The notes below the pieces were generated by a model that saw only the letters and a list, made by a program, of their open reading frames with translations, was not told the DNA's origin and did no database searches. From Alkalihalobacillus sp. FSL W8-0930 (GTDB lineage Bacteria > Bacillota > Bacilli > Bacillales > Bacillaceae_D), in the NCBI GenBank assembly GCA_037965595.1, contig CP150183.1, forward strand, positions 868,001-932,000: a DNA stretch of 64,000 nucleotides, read 5' to 3'. The position numbers and the translations under genes were made by a program. How positions within the stretch are numbered: the stretch's first letter is position 1; each line of letters opens with the position of its first letter. This document shows, piece by piece, positions 5,025-11,503 of this stretch.

Positions 5025-5036
5025 AAACAGGGAACG

Positions 5037-5070
5037 AGCGAATGATCCTTTAAAGGACATTCGCTTTTTT
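5037..5070 (+). terminator. Terminator of surE
   Basis: AGCGAATG and CATTCGCT flank TCCTTTAAAGGA, then six Ts. The GCGAATG/CATTCGC arms are the same as those in the hairpin of the interspersed repeats, so it could be a remnant of one. Confidence 0.85.
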
Positions 5071-5181
5071 GTGATGTGGCTTTGTAAAAGGTTTGTAATG
5101 AATGTGTAAATCGACACAATCAGACATAAGGATCTACTAAACTATTGAATAGTGAGTACATAAAAGGAGGATAAGTAGCAG

Positions 5182-7899
5182 ATGAAAAAAGCACAGCTAA
5201 AGCTATTAATAGCCTGCACGGTTTTTACTTCAGTTGCCTTCATGCCTACAGCATTCGCTGAACAAGAAAGTGAAGCAGTTCAGACGGAAGAAACGGTTGA
5301 ATCAACGGAAGTAGAAGAAGCAGAAGAAGTTGTAGAAACAGAAGTCGTTACAATAGAAGATGAACGATTAGCGGAAATACTTCTTGAGCAAGTCGAAGCG
5401 AATGGGTTCGAAGAGTTAACAACAGAAGCCATGGAGAGTATCACTGAACTGAAAGCAACAGGTATTGGTATCTCTAAGTTAACTGGACTCGAGCATGCAA
5501 CAAATCTTATCACGTTAAACCTCTCGGAGAATCATATCTCTGATTTATCACCACTACAAGACTTAACAAAGCTTGAAGATCTGAAGCTAGAATCAAATCA
5601 GGTGAGAGATGCCAGTCCGCTTTCAGGCTTAACGTCTTTAAAGAAATTAAACCTACGTACGAATAGTGTAAAGGATTTAAATCCATTGCAGCCCCTTGAA
5701 CAACTAGAGAAGTTAGATGTACGTGAAAATGGTTTATCCTCAATTGATGTAGTTGCTTATTTTCCAAAACTAAAGGAGCTAAACCTTAGGGAGAATGCCG
5801 TAACGGATCTTGAACCGATCAGAGGTTTAACTGAGCTTGTTGAGTTGAATCTTCATACAAATCACGTCCAAGATCTTGATCCTTTACGTGAGCTAGTAAA
5901 GCTCGAAGTCATTACGATGAGACGAAATCAGATTTCAGATATCTCAATTCTAGCTAATTTACCGTTACTAAAAGATCTAAACCTACGTGATAATCAGATT
6001 ACCTCTATTGAAGCGTTACGTAATCATCAGTTTTTAACAGTTCGCTTAAATCTACGAGATAACCCAGGGCTAACAGACTTTTCACCGGTTGCTTCGTACT
6101 ATGATCAAATTGAAGATGTAGACTTCGTTATTCCGGCTGATAGCGGGAAGGACTTTGAAGATCTAGACCTTAAAGACGGTGAGGAGAGAATAGCCATCCT
6201 TACCAAACGTTTTATTGAAAACAACCGCTATATCCAAGATCCTACGGTTCGTAACCAAAAGTTCAGTTTAATTGAAAGCAGTCCTTTTTCATTCTATCGT
6301 GGTTCAGCACATCTTTTCTTTGAGGATGCAGCAGAGGATGGATTGATTGTACCGAGTTCATGGGCGAGTGCACCAGTGGACACGTGGATCACTGGAGATT
6401 TTCACGTCGAGAACATCGGATTCTATGGAAATGGTGATCGTCAGGCGATCTTTGATTTTAATGACTTTGATGAAGTAGCGGTTGCGCCGTATTACTACGA
6501 TCTATTACGGTTTGGGACAAGCCTCTATTTGTTAAATGATGTAGCTCCTGCTCTTCAACTTGATAAAGAAACAATGAATGATACCCTTCATATATTTACA
6601 ACGTACTATCAAGATGCATTAGAAGACATCATAAATCAACAAGTAGATGTTCAATCGTTTCAATTTACAGCAGATCAGCTTTCAGGATTTGTTGGAAATC
6701 ATGCAGCAGACCTAGCCTCACTTGATCCGTTTTCAGAGCTTGGACGCTGGACACAAATCGTTGATGGAACAAGAACATTAGATCCTTCCAATGCTCGTTT
6801 GGCAGAGGTGACTGATGAGGAACGCGCGGAGCTTGAGAATGATTGGAGCGCTTATGTAGAAGGTATTGATGCTGCGATTCTGGATGAAGTCGGAGAGGAT
6901 TACTTTGCGATTAAAGATATTGCGAGAAGAACAGATGCTGGATTAGGCAGCCTTGGCACAGAAAGATATTATGTATTGATTGAAGGAGCAACAGCTGGTC
7001 AACAGGATGATGTTATTTTAGATGTGAAGTCACAGCTTCCTTCCGCAGTGGATCGAGCAGGTGTAGGCAAGACATCATCGTATCCAAACCATGCTGATCG
7101 TACGATTGATGGAATGTCAGCACTCCATAACAATCCAGACATTCATTGGGGTAGCTTAACAACAGACAAGCATTCCTATCTTGTAAAGGAACGTTCGGCA
7201 TTTAAGGATGAATTTGACCAATCTTCGTTTAGAAATGCTGATGACTTTGATTCATACCTGTTCTATAGTGCGAAAGCGTCTGCCTATGCGCATACGAGAG
7301 CAGCGAACAAAATTGGTAACACTCAGTTTGCTCAAACGGCGCATACACTTATGAATCAAGACACGTTCCAACAGGAATTTGCTGACTTGTCCTTCCAGTA
7401 CTACGGACAAACATTAAAGGACCACCAAAACTATCGCACCCTTTATAATGCAGGGGCTTTAAGTGATGAAGCATTTGAGCCAATTGAAGAACCAACACCG
7501 CCACCAGCGGGAGAGGAGCCACCCGGAGGAGAACCAACACCGCCACCAGCAGGAGAAGAACCACCTGTAGAAGAGCCGACACCGCCACCAGCGGGAGAGG
7601 AGCCACCAGGAAAGAATCCAACTACGCCACCAATAGTGGAGGCTCCAAAAGGTGAGGACCCACCAAAGTCTAATGGTGGGAATTCAACGGTTACGCCTGG
7701 TCAGAAGGGATCGAATCAATCAAACGATAGCACGAAGACTCCTAGCAAAACGGAGCAGCCAAAACCATCTGCTTTAGGAGGACTCCTTCCAAAAACAGCT
7801 ACAGAAACGATTTTGTATCTTGCATCTGGATTAACTCTAGTGGTCATTGGAGTAGGATTGTACATCACTCAACGTAGAAAGAAAGCGAATGTGAAGTAA
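5182..7899 (+). CDS. Cell-wall-anchored LRR-DUF2252 protein
   Basis: A 905-residue exported surface protein. Residues 1-26 are a signal peptide (cleavage after AFA). An acidic stretch to about 60 is followed by some ten 22-residue internalin-like leucine-rich repeats (about 85-330, pattern LxxLxxLxLxxNxIxDLxPL). Residues about 345-765 are a DUF2252 domain with GDFHVEN (405-411), DFNDFDE (425-431), GLGSLG (587-592) and Lys616. Three identical-length Pro/Glu repeats (EEPTPPPAGEEPP) form a wall spacer, then LPKTA (869-873), a hydrophobic helix and a basic tail form a sortase signal. HxxN and DFND resemble the catalytic loop and metal-binding Asp of kinase-fold phosphotransferases, with the Gly-rich loop and Lys placed after them. 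Activity is unknown. Confidence 0.88.
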   Translation: MKKAQLKLLIACTVFTSVAFMPTAFAEQESEAVQTEETVESTEVEEAEEVVETEVVTIEDERLAEILLEQVEANGFEELTTEAMESITELKATGIGISKLTGLEHATNLITLNLSENHISDLSPLQDLTKLEDLKLESNQVRDASPLSGLTSLKKLNLRTNSVKDLNPLQPLEQLEKLDVRENGLSSIDVVAYFPKLKELNLRENAVTDLEPIRGLTELVELNLHTNHVQDLDPLRELVKLEVITMRRNQISDISILANLPLLKDLNLRDNQITSIEALRNHQFLTVRLNLRDNPGLTDFSPVASYYDQIEDVDFVIPADSGKDFEDLDLKDGEERIAILTKRFIENNRYIQDPTVRNQKFSLIESSPFSFYRGSAHLFFEDAAEDGLIVPSSWASAPVDTWITGDFHVENIGFYGNGDRQAIFDFNDFDEVAVAPYYYDLLRFGTSLYLLNDVAPALQLDKETMNDTLHIFTTYYQDALEDIINQQVDVQSFQFTADQLSGFVGNHAADLASLDPFSELGRWTQIVDGTRTLDPSNARLAEVTDEERAELENDWSAYVEGIDAAILDEVGEDYFAIKDIARRTDAGLGSLGTERYYVLIEGATAGQQDDVILDVKSQLPSAVDRAGVGKTSSYPNHADRTIDGMSALHNNPDIHWGSLTTDKHSYLVKERSAFKDEFDQSSFRNADDFDSYLFYSAKASAYAHTRAANKIGNTQFAQTAHTLMNQDTFQQEFADLSFQYYGQTLKDHQNYRTLYNAGALSDEAFEPIEEPTPPPAGEEPPGGEPTPPPAGEEPPVEEPTPPPAGEEPPGKNPTTPPIVEAPKGEDPPKSNGGNSTVTPGQKGSNQSNDSTKTPSKTEQPKPSALGGLLPKTATETILYLASGLTLVVIGVGLYITQRRKKANVK
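7489..7614 (+). repeat. Three 42-bp tandem repeats coding the Pro-rich wall spacer
   Basis: Three contiguous 42-nt units starting GARCCRACACCGCCACCAGC encode E-P-T-P-P-P-A-G-E-E-P-P-x-x. In-frame unit length means copy-number change would alter spacer length without a frameshift. Confidence 0.9.
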
Positions 7900-7912
7900 G
7901 AGGTTTACGAAG

Positions 7913-7942
7913 GCCTGCCGTGGATAACGGCGGGCTTTTTTT
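7913..7942 (+). terminator. Terminator of the LRR-DUF2252 gene
   Basis: GCCTGCCGT and ACGGCGGGC around GGATA, followed by seven Ts. Confidence 0.85.
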
Positions 7943-7959
7943 CTCAAAAAGATAGCTGC

Positions 7960-8018
7960 TTGACAAATGAAACAAATAGGAACATAATGCAGACATAAAC
8001 ACGGACAATTGTTATCCG
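7960..8018 (+). promoter_or_regulatory. SigA promoter and palindromic operator of the Rrf2 operon
   Basis: TTGACA (7960-7965), 17-bp spacer, CATAAT (7983-7988) is a near-consensus promoter. Just downstream an inverted repeat CGGACAATTGTTATCCG (8002-8018) overlaps the expected start of the transcript. The second gene of the operon encodes an Rrf2 regulator, so an autoregulatory operator is a reasonable inference. Confidence 0.65.
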
Positions 8019-8057
8019 GGTTAGTCGTTATTAATAGATTTTCTAGGGGGAGTTTCT

Positions 8058-8435
8058 ATGAATAATTTAAACAAGTATTTTGACCTATTTGACCAGTCGC
8101 GCGCGAGTGAGCAGGCTTTCGAAGAATTAGTCAGTCTTTTCTCTGAAGATATTACGTTTGTTTTAAATGGTCATAAAAAAGAGGGCATCCATAATTGGAG
8201 AGCATTTGTAACAAAAATCTACGAAGAAAACGTAGATTTGAAACATATGTTTGAAGGTTGGTTACCGGTTGAAGGAACAGAAACCTATCAAACAAATTGG
8301 GCTATTTGTGGAAAACATAAATCGGGAAAAGTGTATACCCAAACAGGTAAAGATATTGCAAAACTAAATGAACAAGGTGAAATTTGTTACTTAGAAAATA
8401 TGCCAGATAACACAGATTTGTTTAAGGGATACTAA
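8058..8435 (+). CDS. NTF2/SnoaL-like fold protein
   Basis: A 125-residue protein with the cone-fold pattern of SnoaL/NTF2-like proteins: an N-terminal helix with Phe residues (LNKYFDLFDQS), LFSEDITFVLNG, and a later WAICGKHKSGKVY strand pair. Members are enzymes on small hydrophobic substrates or binding proteins; no catalytic residues can be assigned. It is the first gene of a four-gene operon with Rrf2, luciferase-like oxidoreductase and DUF896 genes, 14 bases before the regulator. RBS is TAGGGGGAG. Confidence 0.75.
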   Translation: MNNLNKYFDLFDQSRASEQAFEELVSLFSEDITFVLNGHKKEGIHNWRAFVTKIYEENVDLKHMFEGWLPVEGTETYQTNWAICGKHKSGKVYTQTGKDIAKLNEQGEICYLENMPDNTDLFKGY

Positions 8436-8449
8436 AGGAGTGAGGATGT

Positions 8450-8932
8450 TTGCACATTAAATCTGGTTTTGAACAGGCTGTTTACGCCCTATTATTACTT
8501 GATATGCTTCCTGAAAAAGCTGTTTTACCTGGAGAAGCGATTAGCGAACACTTAAGTAATTCGCCTTCCTACTTGCAAAAATTAATTCGTAAGCTGGTCC
8601 ATGCTGGTATTGTTACGTCAGTCACTGGAGTAAAAGGTGGCTTTAAATTAAGCAAAAATCCGGAGGACATTCAAATATACGATGTGTACGTAGCGATTGA
8701 GGGGAATCAATCTATGTACTCATCGAATGGTGTGCTAAGCAGTTTATTACGTATCGATAAAGATGACTGTGAATGCTTATTAGAAAACATCATGCTAGAA
8801 GCTGAATCAAACTGGATTAAAACGTTAAAACAAAAGACCATTTCTACTTTGGCAAAGGACTTACAGAGTGGTCCGTTTGATTCTAAAGTGAAGCCGATCG
8901 AAAAATGGATACAAGAAAAAATGGTCTTGTAG
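8450..8932 (+). CDS. Rrf2 family transcriptional regulator
   Basis: A 160-residue winged-helix repressor. TTG start with AAAGGAGTGAGG upstream; the overlapping ATG frame stops at once. MHIKSGFEQAVYALLLLDML is the usual Rrf2 N-terminus, LQKLIRKLVHAGIVTS the recognition helix region and GVKGGFKLSKNPEDI the wing. Only a CEC pair near residue 105 is present rather than the three-cysteine Fe-S cluster motif of IscR/NsrR, so it resembles YwnA/HypR-type members that sense redox stress or small molecules. It probably controls its own operon through the palindrome at 8002-8018. Confidence 0.88.
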   Translation: MHIKSGFEQAVYALLLLDMLPEKAVLPGEAISEHLSNSPSYLQKLIRKLVHAGIVTSVTGVKGGFKLSKNPEDIQIYDVYVAIEGNQSMYSSNGVLSSLLRIDKDDCECLLENIMLEAESNWIKTLKQKTISTLAKDLQSGPFDSKVKPIEKWIQEKMVL

Positions 8933-8954
8933 CTTAAGATCACAGGAGAAGAAA

Positions 8955-9905
8955 ATGAACTCGATCATTAACCATAAAGGATATAAACAAACATTTATTG
9001 AGAATAAATTAACGCTAGGCTTAGCTTTTCCGTTAGAAGCACGAACGAGTATGGATATAGGTGAACAAGTTAGACTTGCTCAAAAAGCAGAAGATCTTGG
9101 TTTCTCTGCTCTTTTCGTAAGAGATTCACCTTTACACGATCCAAAGTTCGGGGATTCTGGTAATCTCTTTGATCCTTTTGTCTTTCTGTCCTATCTAGCT
9201 GCACATACGAAAAAAATTGCACTTGGTACTGCTAGTGTTGTGACTCCTTTAAGGAATCCCTTACACTTAGCGAAATTAGCTGCTTCCTTAGACATTCTTT
9301 CAAGTAATAGATTTCTATTTGGAGTGGCAACTGGGGACCGCCCCATTGAATATCCGGCCTTTAAGGTAGAATCAGATGATAAGGGACGATTATTTAGAGA
9401 ATCAATCGAAGTGATGAAGAAGGTTTGGAGCGAAGACTTTCCGACTATTGAAACGGAAAAAGTGAACCTTACTGTAGGGGATGTATTACCAAAACCAAGT
9501 CAATCTCACATCCCTCTCCTTGGGACGGGCTATGCAAACCAGTCGATGGAATGGTTAGCTGAGCATATGGATGGTTTTATGTTCTATATGCAGGAAGGGT
9601 TTAGACAGAAGGAACTAATTAAGACGTGGAGAGAACACACGGGTACGTTTAAACCATTTATCCAACCAATTATTTTGGATTTAACAGAAGATCCAAAGAA
9701 ACCGCCATTTCCAATACCTATTAAAGCTAGTCTAAAAACCGGAAGAAACTTCTTAATAGACTATCTTTATGCATTGCAGGATATGGGAATTAACCACACG
9801 ATGTTGTACTTGATGCCTGGAAATCGACCAGCTGAAGAAGTGATTCAAGAAATTGGAGAGTACGTTGTACCACTCTTTAACAAAACGAAAGGAGTATTCA
9901 AATGA
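8955..9905 (+). CDS. LLM-class (luciferase-like) flavin-dependent oxidoreductase
   Basis: A 316-residue TIM-barrel flavoenzyme using FMN (or F420 in other groups) with a reduced flavin donor. LTLGLAFPLEAR begins strand 1; AQKAEDLGFSALFVRDSP, IALGTASVVTPLRNPLHLAK and RFLFGVATGDRPIEYPAF are the conserved barrel segments. It fits the TIGR03571-type subfamily common in Bacillus. The substrate is unknown. It is the third gene of the Rrf2 operon and its stop overlaps the next gene start by four bases (ATGA), implying translational coupling. Oxidation or detoxification under Rrf2 control is inferred. Confidence 0.88.
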   Translation: MNSIINHKGYKQTFIENKLTLGLAFPLEARTSMDIGEQVRLAQKAEDLGFSALFVRDSPLHDPKFGDSGNLFDPFVFLSYLAAHTKKIALGTASVVTPLRNPLHLAKLAASLDILSSNRFLFGVATGDRPIEYPAFKVESDDKGRLFRESIEVMKKVWSEDFPTIETEKVNLTVGDVLPKPSQSHIPLLGTGYANQSMEWLAEHMDGFMFYMQEGFRQKELIKTWREHTGTFKPFIQPIILDLTEDPKKPPFPIPIKASLKTGRNFLIDYLYALQDMGINHTMLYLMPGNRPAEEVIQEIGEYVVPLFNKTKGVFK

Positions 9906-10126
9906 AAGAACTATTAAACAAAATTAACGCATTGGCCAAAAAAGAACGTGAGGTTGGACTAAGTTCTCTTGAAAAAGAAGAGCAGCAACAATTGCGGAAA
10001 GAATATATTAAAAATTTTAGAGGACAAGTCTTAAGTACACTCACTGGTTTAACCATTGTAGATCCACTTGGTAATGATGTAACTCCAGAGAAGGTTAAGA
10101 AACTAAGTTCAGACAATGAAAAATGA
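9902..10126 (+). CDS. DUF896 family protein (YnzC-like)
   Basis: A 74-residue two-helix protein. LLNKINALAKKEREVGLSSL, EQQQLRKEYIKNFRGQV and DPLGNDVTPEKVKKL match the DUF896 pattern (RINELA..., E..EQ..LR..YL..FR, DP.GNDVTP.KL) seen in YnzC and YlaC-type proteins. YnzC of B. subtilis belongs to the SOS-linked yneA operon, but here the gene is translationally coupled to an oxidoreductase, a different context. Function unknown. Confidence 0.85.
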   Translation: MKELLNKINALAKKEREVGLSSLEKEEQQQLRKEYIKNFRGQVLSTLTGLTIVDPLGNDVTPEKVKKLSSDNEK

Positions 10127-10173
10127 GGATTTTAAGAAATAGTTTGGATTATAATTAGCTCTTTTACAAAAAA

Positions 10174-10397
10174 ACTGAGTCAGAACAGAAAATCACTCTG
10201 GAAACACGAACATAGCAATCTATCTGATGCAGGAGAATCCCTCCCACCCGCGGGGTACGACCTCAGCTTCTTACGCGGAACCCCATTGCTACAGAGTCTT
10301 CACCGTGAACTTATCCATAGGAGTGTCGGGTTCTCCTTACGCTCGTTTTGAAAATACAAATAGCGAATGATTCAATCGTAGATTCATTCGCTATTTT
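10174..10397 (-). repeat. Interspersed repeat copy B
   Basis: Reverse-orientation copy with the shared blocks GGAGAATCCCTC, GTCTTCACCGTG and GGGTTCTCCTTACGCTCG and the hairpin at 10361-10393 (TAGCGAATGATTC...). Terminal repeats are degraded: the GGGAC core is not recognisable at either end. The rest of the gap (10398-10626) is AT-rich; TTTTCA and TATGAT near 10550-10580 could be the promoter of the next gene, otherwise I see nothing in it. Confidence 0.8.
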
Positions 10398-10626
10398 CAT
10401 CTACCTCTTGTTAGCCATTTAACATTATTTTATCTATCCTAATAAATGAAAGCTATATTTTAATCTCGAGTTCACCTACTATTTTCTACATTAATTTCCT
10501 CTATTCCCCTACAAACGTTTCAGTTTCATTACGAATCTCCTTCATGGCTTTTCAACTTGTGTAATTTCATGTATGATGTCAAAAGAACAAATGGGTACTT
10601 TCTGCAAAAGAGAAAGGATGAATGAT

Positions 10627-11460
10627 TTGAAAGAGATAAAGCGAGCGTGTCTTTTAACGATGGCAACGTTTCTGATTGCAAGTCTTGGTTTTAGTCAATT
10701 CGCACTTGCTGAAGGATCAGAGGGGCAGACTTTTTTCTATAAGGAACAAACATTATTAACGCCGATCGAAGCAGAATGGTCTTATGAGGGAAAGAATGGT
10801 CCTGAATATTGGGAAACGTTAAGTAATGAATATGAAGCATGTGGAAAAGGGGAAGCTCAGTCTCCAATTGATATTGAGACAGAACCGGCTTCTAAATTAG
10901 ATGTGTCAGATCTTGAGCTATCGTTTGATTACAATGAAACGATCTACTCTGTTGAAGATCATGATGAGATCTTCCAGGCTAATTCATTTGATTTAAATAA
11001 TAATACACTTACTCTTGATGATGAAGATTATAGATTAAAACAAATTGCCTTACATACTCCTAGTGAGCACACCATTGACGGAGAAGAATACCCACTTGAG
11101 ATTCAGTTGGTTCATGAGAACGAGGATGAAGAGCAATTAATCATTAGTGTAATGGCTGAGGAAGGTAAAGAAGATAAGGTGCTTAAGAAGGTTTGGATGG
11201 CGTTACCTAAAGCGGATGGCGTGGCTAACCGAGCTGTTGACTTCGATGCATCTGAGCTTATTCCGGAATTAGAAAGCCTCTACACGTATGAGGGATCATT
11301 AACAACACCACCTTGTACAGAAAATGTGAAGTGGTTTGTGTCAGATGAGCCAATTAGCTTATCTGGAGAGCAGATTGAGGCCGTGCAAAAGGTGTCATCT
11401 GAAAATAATCGTCCGGTTCAAGACCTAAACAAACGTGATATCTTAAAAGTACAGCCATAA
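10627..11460 (+). CDS. Exported alpha-carbonic anhydrase homologue lacking zinc ligands
   Basis: About 277 residues. The TTG at 10627 is chosen because AGAAAGGA ends eight bases before it; in-frame ATGs at 10573 and 10618 lack usable sites. Residues to ALA form a signal peptide. The alpha-CA fold is clear: WSYEGKNGPEYW, GEAQSPIDI, TPSEHTIDGEEYPLEI, LTTPPCTENVKWFV. However, the three zinc histidines should read HxH...H: the QFHFH motif is QIALH and ELHLVH is EIQLVH, so two of three ligands (human CA II His94 and His119) are Ala and Gln. It is therefore unlikely to be a normal CO2 hydratase. The protein is very acidic, suiting an extracellular location. Ligand-binding or structural role is inference. 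Confidence 0.85.
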   Translation: MKEIKRACLLTMATFLIASLGFSQFALAEGSEGQTFFYKEQTLLTPIEAEWSYEGKNGPEYWETLSNEYEACGKGEAQSPIDIETEPASKLDVSDLELSFDYNETIYSVEDHDEIFQANSFDLNNNTLTLDDEDYRLKQIALHTPSEHTIDGEEYPLEIQLVHENEDEEQLIISVMAEEGKEDKVLKKVWMALPKADGVANRAVDFDASELIPELESLYTYEGSLTTPPCTENVKWFVSDEPISLSGEQIEAVQKVSSENNRPVQDLNKRDILKVQP

Positions 11461-11468
11461 CAAATAGG

Positions 11469-11503
11469 AGCCACCAAAGAATGTTTTTCTTTGGGGCTTT
11501 TTT
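11469..11503 (+). terminator. Terminator of the carbonic anhydrase-like gene
   Basis: AGCCACCAAAGAA and TTCTTTGGGGCT form the stem; six Ts follow. Confidence 0.8.

Follow-up and report, generated by a model that had tools for sequence, protein, structure and literature searches.

Can a secreted bacterial alpha-carbonic anhydrase (CA) lose its zinc site and persist as a conserved protein, and, if so, what might such a protein do? The question is raised by a gene on the + strand of the window (the whole stretch of 64,000 nucleotides that was analysed), which runs from a TTG codon at 10627 to a stop codon ending at 11460 and encodes an alpha-CA homologue of 277 amino acids, as delineated by its open reading frame, Pfam match and comparison with orthologues. 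The match to Pfam PF00194 (139.2 bits, E 2.4e-40, with a cut-off of 27) places the protein in the alpha-CA superfamily. Its top sequence matches among solved structures are bacterial alpha-CAs, the best being 4G7A (E 1.6e-48), and the 13 best bacterial alpha-CA chains are 33-41% identical to it.

An earlier note on this DNA had claimed that two of the three zinc ligands are replaced in this protein. Indeed, the sequence reads QIALH instead of QFHFH at 11041-11055, and EIQLVH instead of ELHLVH at 11098-11115. In human CA II numbering, placed by motif, His94 is replaced by alanine (Ala141, 11047..11049) and His119 by glutamine (Gln160, 11104..11106), while the equivalent of His96 is kept as His143 (11053..11055), the sole zinc ligand retained; the three assignments come from the alignment and from the codons of the orthologues described below. 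Both the 94 and the 119 column are His in 100% of 103 intact CA ORFs. The proton-shuttle His64, found in 76% of intact CAs, is replaced by Glu in all five orthologues, and in the window's copy the alignment places this Glu in an acidic loop, D-H-D-E instead of N-N-G-H at positions 61-64 (10957..10968); position 62 is His in two of the orthologues and Asn in three. The window's copy retains Q92, H96, E106, H107, E117, V121, T199 and both cysteines, the gate-keeper residues Glu106 and Thr199 being invariant in the zinc-less clade. SPIDI, PSEH and SLTTPPC are all present, so that the motifs said earlier to be kept (SPIDI, SEH and LTTPPC) are there. The mature chain contains 4 His in total. A catalytic alpha-CA (EC 4.2.1.1) is defined by three zinc histidines, and these proteins instead have Ala-His-Gln in five orthologues out of five; we infer that the zinc-less homologue would bind no zinc and have no CO2 hydratase activity.

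The orthologues come from a survey of 41 genomes of the family, five of which (G000-G004) belong to the window's own genus, Alkalicoccobacillus. In each of these five, one close copy of the gene (70-100% identity) is accompanied by a distant copy, or in G002 by two of them (39-42% identity). All five close copies are Ala-His-Gln and all six distant ones His-His-His. The close copy is absent from the other 36 family genomes, 15 of which have a CA match of at most 54% identity, in some cases a mere fragment. The survey for the same substitutions that the earlier note had proposed thus returned them in every orthologue, none having intact ligands, and the refutation it had foreseen, intact orthologues with a sequencing error in this copy, fails. 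The codons at the replaced residues vary among the five (GCC or GCT for Ala, CAG or CAA for Gln, GAG or GAA for Glu64); since H94A takes two base changes and synonymous codons vary in this way, a sequencing error is not credible. The five species represent one genus and hence are not independent. The window's genome also encodes an intact alpha-CA, about 2.07 Mb away, and a beta-CA, so CO2 hydration would be independent of the zinc-less protein.

To judge how unusual such ligand loss is, we can look at 161 CA ORFs, mostly from Bacilli and with other phyla barely sampled, of which 119 are distinct; 111 of these have the three positions aligned and 8 are partial. His-His-His was found in 103 of the 111, the remaining eight being the five members of the zinc-less clade and three others, L020, L144 and L154. 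L144 is a 144-residue fragment without the relevant stretch and is thus misaligned; it is not counted as ligand loss. L020 (genome G038, minus strand, from another family) is His-Asn-His, with one ligand replaced, and sits on a long branch in a single genome. L154 (positions 1477-2146; the small, unrelated genome G840) holds a frame-broken CA gene with Ser-His-Gln, apparently a decaying x-His-Gln case, among ORFs that by eye look dehydrogenase-like and transposase-like; in the order of this genome a CA was found in 1 of 10 genomes. Homologues on mobile elements are His-His-His in 16 of 16 cases (15 plasmid records and 1 phage record, chosen among 78 matches listed; records matched, 195 plasmid and 8 phage), and the 8 CA loci with aligned sites on viral contigs are all intact, 3 further loci being partial; repeated scans recovered these contigs and no others. 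The CA gene itself was found in 5 of 398 genomes for the phylum, 33 of 398 for the class and 51 of 397 for the order. Among the open-literature titles and abstracts found, none concerns a bacterial alpha-CA that lacks zinc histidines, and passages of PMC7662607 and PMC5574912, both of which deal with bacterial CAs, do not mention one; as evidence of absence this is weak. This is consistent with the earlier remark that bacterial examples are little discussed. Judged from sequence, the zinc-less pseudo-carbonic anhydrase is real and conserved and, as far as these searches reach, appears unusual for bacteria.

The sequence AAGGATG together with TTG 10627 is common to all five orthologues, and a ribosome-binding-like AGAAAGG lies at 10611..10617. 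Two other start codons, ATG 10573 and ATG 10618, were considered and rejected: in one orthologue the upstream frame contains stops and a one-base insertion, and the insertion places ATG 10618 out of frame. Because TTG 10627 is shared by the five and the frame of ATG 10618 is broken in one, we take the TTG as the right start, as the previous description of the ORF (10627-11460) had it. The first 28 residues (10627..10710), judged by eye, form a putative Sec-type signal peptide that ends ALA/EG and has no lipobox, suggesting that the protein is exported by the Sec route. The mature alpha-CA domain (10711..11457; 249 amino acids, delimited from the sequence and from a fold match with a weak model) has a pI of 4.1 and a charge of about -39 at pH 7.

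Upstream, on the same strand, a conserved footprint TTTCAGTTTCATTACGAATC at 10518..10537 is kept in the upstream regions of all five orthologues and may be a regulator site; the other four read TTTGCARTT, two bases, then ATTACGAAT, and the sequence farther upstream aligns poorly among the five. The footprint has one exact occurrence in the genome and a single other site at 3 mismatches. A promoter-like TTTTCA-17-TATGAT (10549..10577, consensus score 9/12) follows, of which TGTATGATG is identical across the five orthologues while the first hexamer varies. Directly past the stop codon is a terminator-like hairpin followed by a T run (11474..11494). Neither consensus scan exceeds chance by number of sites (promoters, 4 against 5.0 expected, so that the promoter-like site is weak alone; terminators, 2 against 1.5).

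The gene order CA, M20 peptidase, YdjM and GNAT, with BioY on the opposite strand, is the same in all five genomes, and the genes upstream of the CA differ among them. An operon with the M20 peptidase was considered, given the order kept in 5/5, but was rejected on account of the terminator-like hairpin between the two genes. No operon link, ligand or partner of the zinc-less protein was found. The interval that separates SurE from the CA gene (5025-10520 of the window) is an insertion-prone site whose content differs between species: genes of the Rrf2 and luciferase-like kinds lie there in the window, a chemoreceptor gene in L078, a gene for cation efflux in L079 and, in L080, an LRR/DUF2252 gene alone. 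The window's gene of the last kind (5182-7899) encodes a 905-amino acid protein that combines leucine-rich repeats with a DUF2252 domain and an LPXTG anchor; its Pro-rich repeat stalk varies among species, and it was not found in the L078 stretch. In L079 (genome G004) the M20 peptidase gene is in two frames, and it and the orthologues of an 873-amino acid membrane protein and of the LRR/DUF2252 protein are each in two or three frames, which reflects errors of assembly or else genes that are broken; the CA gene of L079 is intact.

Pairwise Nei-Gojobori counts put dN/dS at 0.037-0.076 among the zinc-less genes, where dS is finite in 7 of 10 pairs, and at 0.097-0.146 among the intact paralogues, where it is finite in 8 of 15. 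In most pairs dS is saturated; dN of the intact rows is raised by some leader sequence, and not all intact pairs are orthologous, since both G002 copies are included. For the unsaturated close pair G000-G001 the values were 0.076 for the zinc-less and 0.110 for the intact gene, and core-only intact pairs with finite dS (222 codons, with the G004 copy) gave 0.127 and 0.138. This comparison indicates that the zinc-less gene is constrained about like the enzyme gene, or more.

The changes in the protein are concentrated. Fifty columns are at least 80% conserved in the 103 intact CAs, and the window's copy keeps 43 of them; the seven that deviate are 63, 65, 94, 95, 119, 143 and residue 183. The first five deviate in all five orthologues and all belong to the catalytic centre, and at 143 and residue 183 the usual residue is found in one orthologue each. 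With active-site labels that were assigned post hoc from human CA II numbering, clustering at the active site had p 0.017 for the seven columns and 0.0096 for the five fixed ones. Among the orthologues 23 of 28 pocket columns are invariant, compared with 141 of 221 other columns (one-sided p 0.04, nominal only), which suggests that the emptied pocket is not drifting. On one set of 17 pocket labels applied to both, however, 15 are invariant in the zinc-less clade versus 17 in six intact paralogues, so the enzyme keeps its pocket more strictly. By the alignments the scaffold was spared and the catalytic centre was remade; the new centre has for the most part been kept, at a strictness no higher than the enzyme's.

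Two trees, both built without animal sequences, bear on the origin of the clade. In a 38-row tree, with rows picked by hand and most long rows omitted, the zinc-less clade joins the CAs of the genus and two CAs of the family with support of 99/98, the union restricted to the genus CAs being supported by 66/55; the stem of the clade is 1.52 changes per column long and its crown is short. In a 109-row tree, which raised long-branch warnings, a branch with 97/86 support leaves the clade outside the CAs of the genus. The sister thus varies between trees, and a duplication within the family, followed by a burst of change and then stasis, is in our view what would fit best. Nothing seen in the analysis, whose trees contain no animal sequences, points to descent from, or with, the animal carbonic-anhydrase-related proteins (CARPs).

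The earlier statement that the general fold is kept agrees with the PF00194 match and with a structural search. An AlphaFold2 model from 10 rows (mean pLDDT 62, pTM 0.68) is too weak for judging the pocket; a Foldseek search with this weak model retrieved 4X5S (E 3.4e-22, TM 0.72/0.80), with bacterial alpha-CA chains at ranks 1-13 and dioscorin at rank 14. Dioscorin, from yam (4TWL), is a zinc-free protein that shares the alpha-CA fold and differs in being a plant protein. With the bacterial alpha-CAs (4G7A, 4X5S, 1KOP, 4C3T) the window's protein shares the fold, the two cysteines, second-shell residues and 43 of the 50 conserved columns, and it differs from them in the replacement of ligands 94 and 119 and of proton shuttle 64.

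Between one and three zinc histidines are missing from the human CARPs, whose action is non-catalytic (PMC9032886, PMC6609565), and animal CARPs are assumed to work through other proteins (PMC6609565). The description of this type, at least one zinc histidine missing from a gene that is intact and constrained, also applies to the bacterial gene. Like CARPs VIII, X and XI and the cnidarian ones, the window's protein has an alpha-CA fold without the full zinc triad. An Arg-His-Gln triad is reported for CARP X, for the cytosolic CARPs of cnidarians and for those of sea urchin, oyster and sponge, and the authors regard it as non-random (PMC4981384); positions 94 and 119 are lost in these as in the bacterial Ala-His-Gln. 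The likeness to animal CARPs drawn in the earlier note, ligand loss with the fold kept, is thus borne out. The window's protein differs in being bacterial, in having Ala instead of Arg at 94, in having lost the His64 that the three human CARPs keep (PMC6609565) and in having no C-terminal cysteine extension of the kind seen in CARPs X and XI. Secreted cnidarian CARPs are described in PMC4981384 as having repeated origins and a poorly conserved site, the latter unlike the window's protein. 'CARP-like' is, on alignment evidence, an apt description of the make-up of the bacterial protein. Two plant proteins offer another comparison: PtCAL-1 and PtCAL-2 lack two and three zinc histidines, respectively, work in alkaloid scaffold formation, and have an activity unaffected by a zinc chelator or added zinc (PMC10700139). 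They resemble the window's protein as alpha-CA relatives minus two or three zinc histidines that are located outside the cell, and differ from it in that alkaloid chemistry is known for the plant proteins whereas no pathway was recognised around the bacterial gene.

What, then, might the protein do? The ligand loss, conservation in five species, constraint, spared scaffold and presence of an intact paralogue support the reading that we somewhat favour, a secreted zinc-free pseudo-carbonic anhydrase that would most likely be an extracellular binding protein and not a CO2 hydratase. A normal alpha-CA gene would probably have been duplicated in the family containing Alkalicoccobacillus (the time and place being conjectural); in one duplicate a burst of change would have removed His94, His119 and the proton shuttle His64, and the gene would have stayed near-constant since. 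Its product, which would be exported by the Sec route, keeps its fold and two cysteines and would most likely bind something outside the cell, either a small ligand in the remodelled, acidic-rimmed pocket or an envelope protein. A bolder version, which we hold only tentatively, is that a secreted CA independently lost the two ligands that many animal CARPs lose and became a zinc-free protein whose new pocket serves ligand binding or catalysis, perhaps for life at high pH, the whole protein being held more strictly than its parent enzyme.

A new enzyme, in which the zinc-free pocket (Glu64, Ala94, His96, Gln119, Glu106, Glu117 and Thr199) would catalyse a different extracellular chemistry in the style of the plant CALs, seems rather unlikely. 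The fixation of the replaced residues in all five orthologues would suit it, the conserved pocket is also compatible with it, and PtCAL-1 and PtCAL-2 set a precedent for the loss of zinc histidines with new chemistry (PMC10700139); the neighbouring genes (a peptidase, the YdjM membrane protein and an acetyltransferase), however, form no recognisable pathway and suggest no substrate.

Two further roles appear improbable to us in about equal measure. The acidic protein might act as a proton antenna on the outside of the membrane, passing protons to transporters in alkaline medium with no catalysis involved; an antenna role was proposed for CARPs VIII, X and XI, which enhance MCT1 transport non-catalytically (PMC6609565). 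The mature charge of about -39 and the new acidic loop on the pocket rim would fit this idea, but the acidity is not special (over the last 225 residues, -21 to -39 in ten intact family CAs and -36 to -43 in the zinc-less clade), no membrane anchor is seen, and the His64 thought to bind the transporter, kept in all three of these CARPs (PMC6609565), is lost here. Alternatively, the protein might partner the intact secreted paralogue, either regulating it or competing with it, and the two occur together in 5/5 genomes; these are five non-independent species of one genus, however, and in the window's genome the two genes lie about 2.07 Mb apart.

That zinc or another metal is still bound through His143 and new ligands, with hydratase or esterase activity kept, we consider very improbable: Q92, H96, E106, E117 and T199 are indeed there, but Ala and Gln take the place of two ligands out of three in all five orthologues, the mature chain has only 4 His, and the inactivity of CA VIII accompanies the absence of a single histidine (PMC9032886). 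A decaying gene or a sequencing error is hardly conceivable and was ruled out, since, although a broken Ser-His-Gln CA gene is known in the unrelated L154, nothing in the zinc-less clade supports decay and five assemblies with intact frames, low dN/dS, varied synonymous codons and a conserved start and promoter region speak against it.

Most work on CARPs has been done in animals, in which it is difficult to tell what they do apart from development, and a conserved, secreted bacterial counterpart beside an intact paralogue would make the function of a zinc-free CA fold tractable in a simple system. That the two positions lost are those missing from many animal CARPs (x-His-Gln) hints at a favoured route by which the site may be emptied with the fold unbroken.
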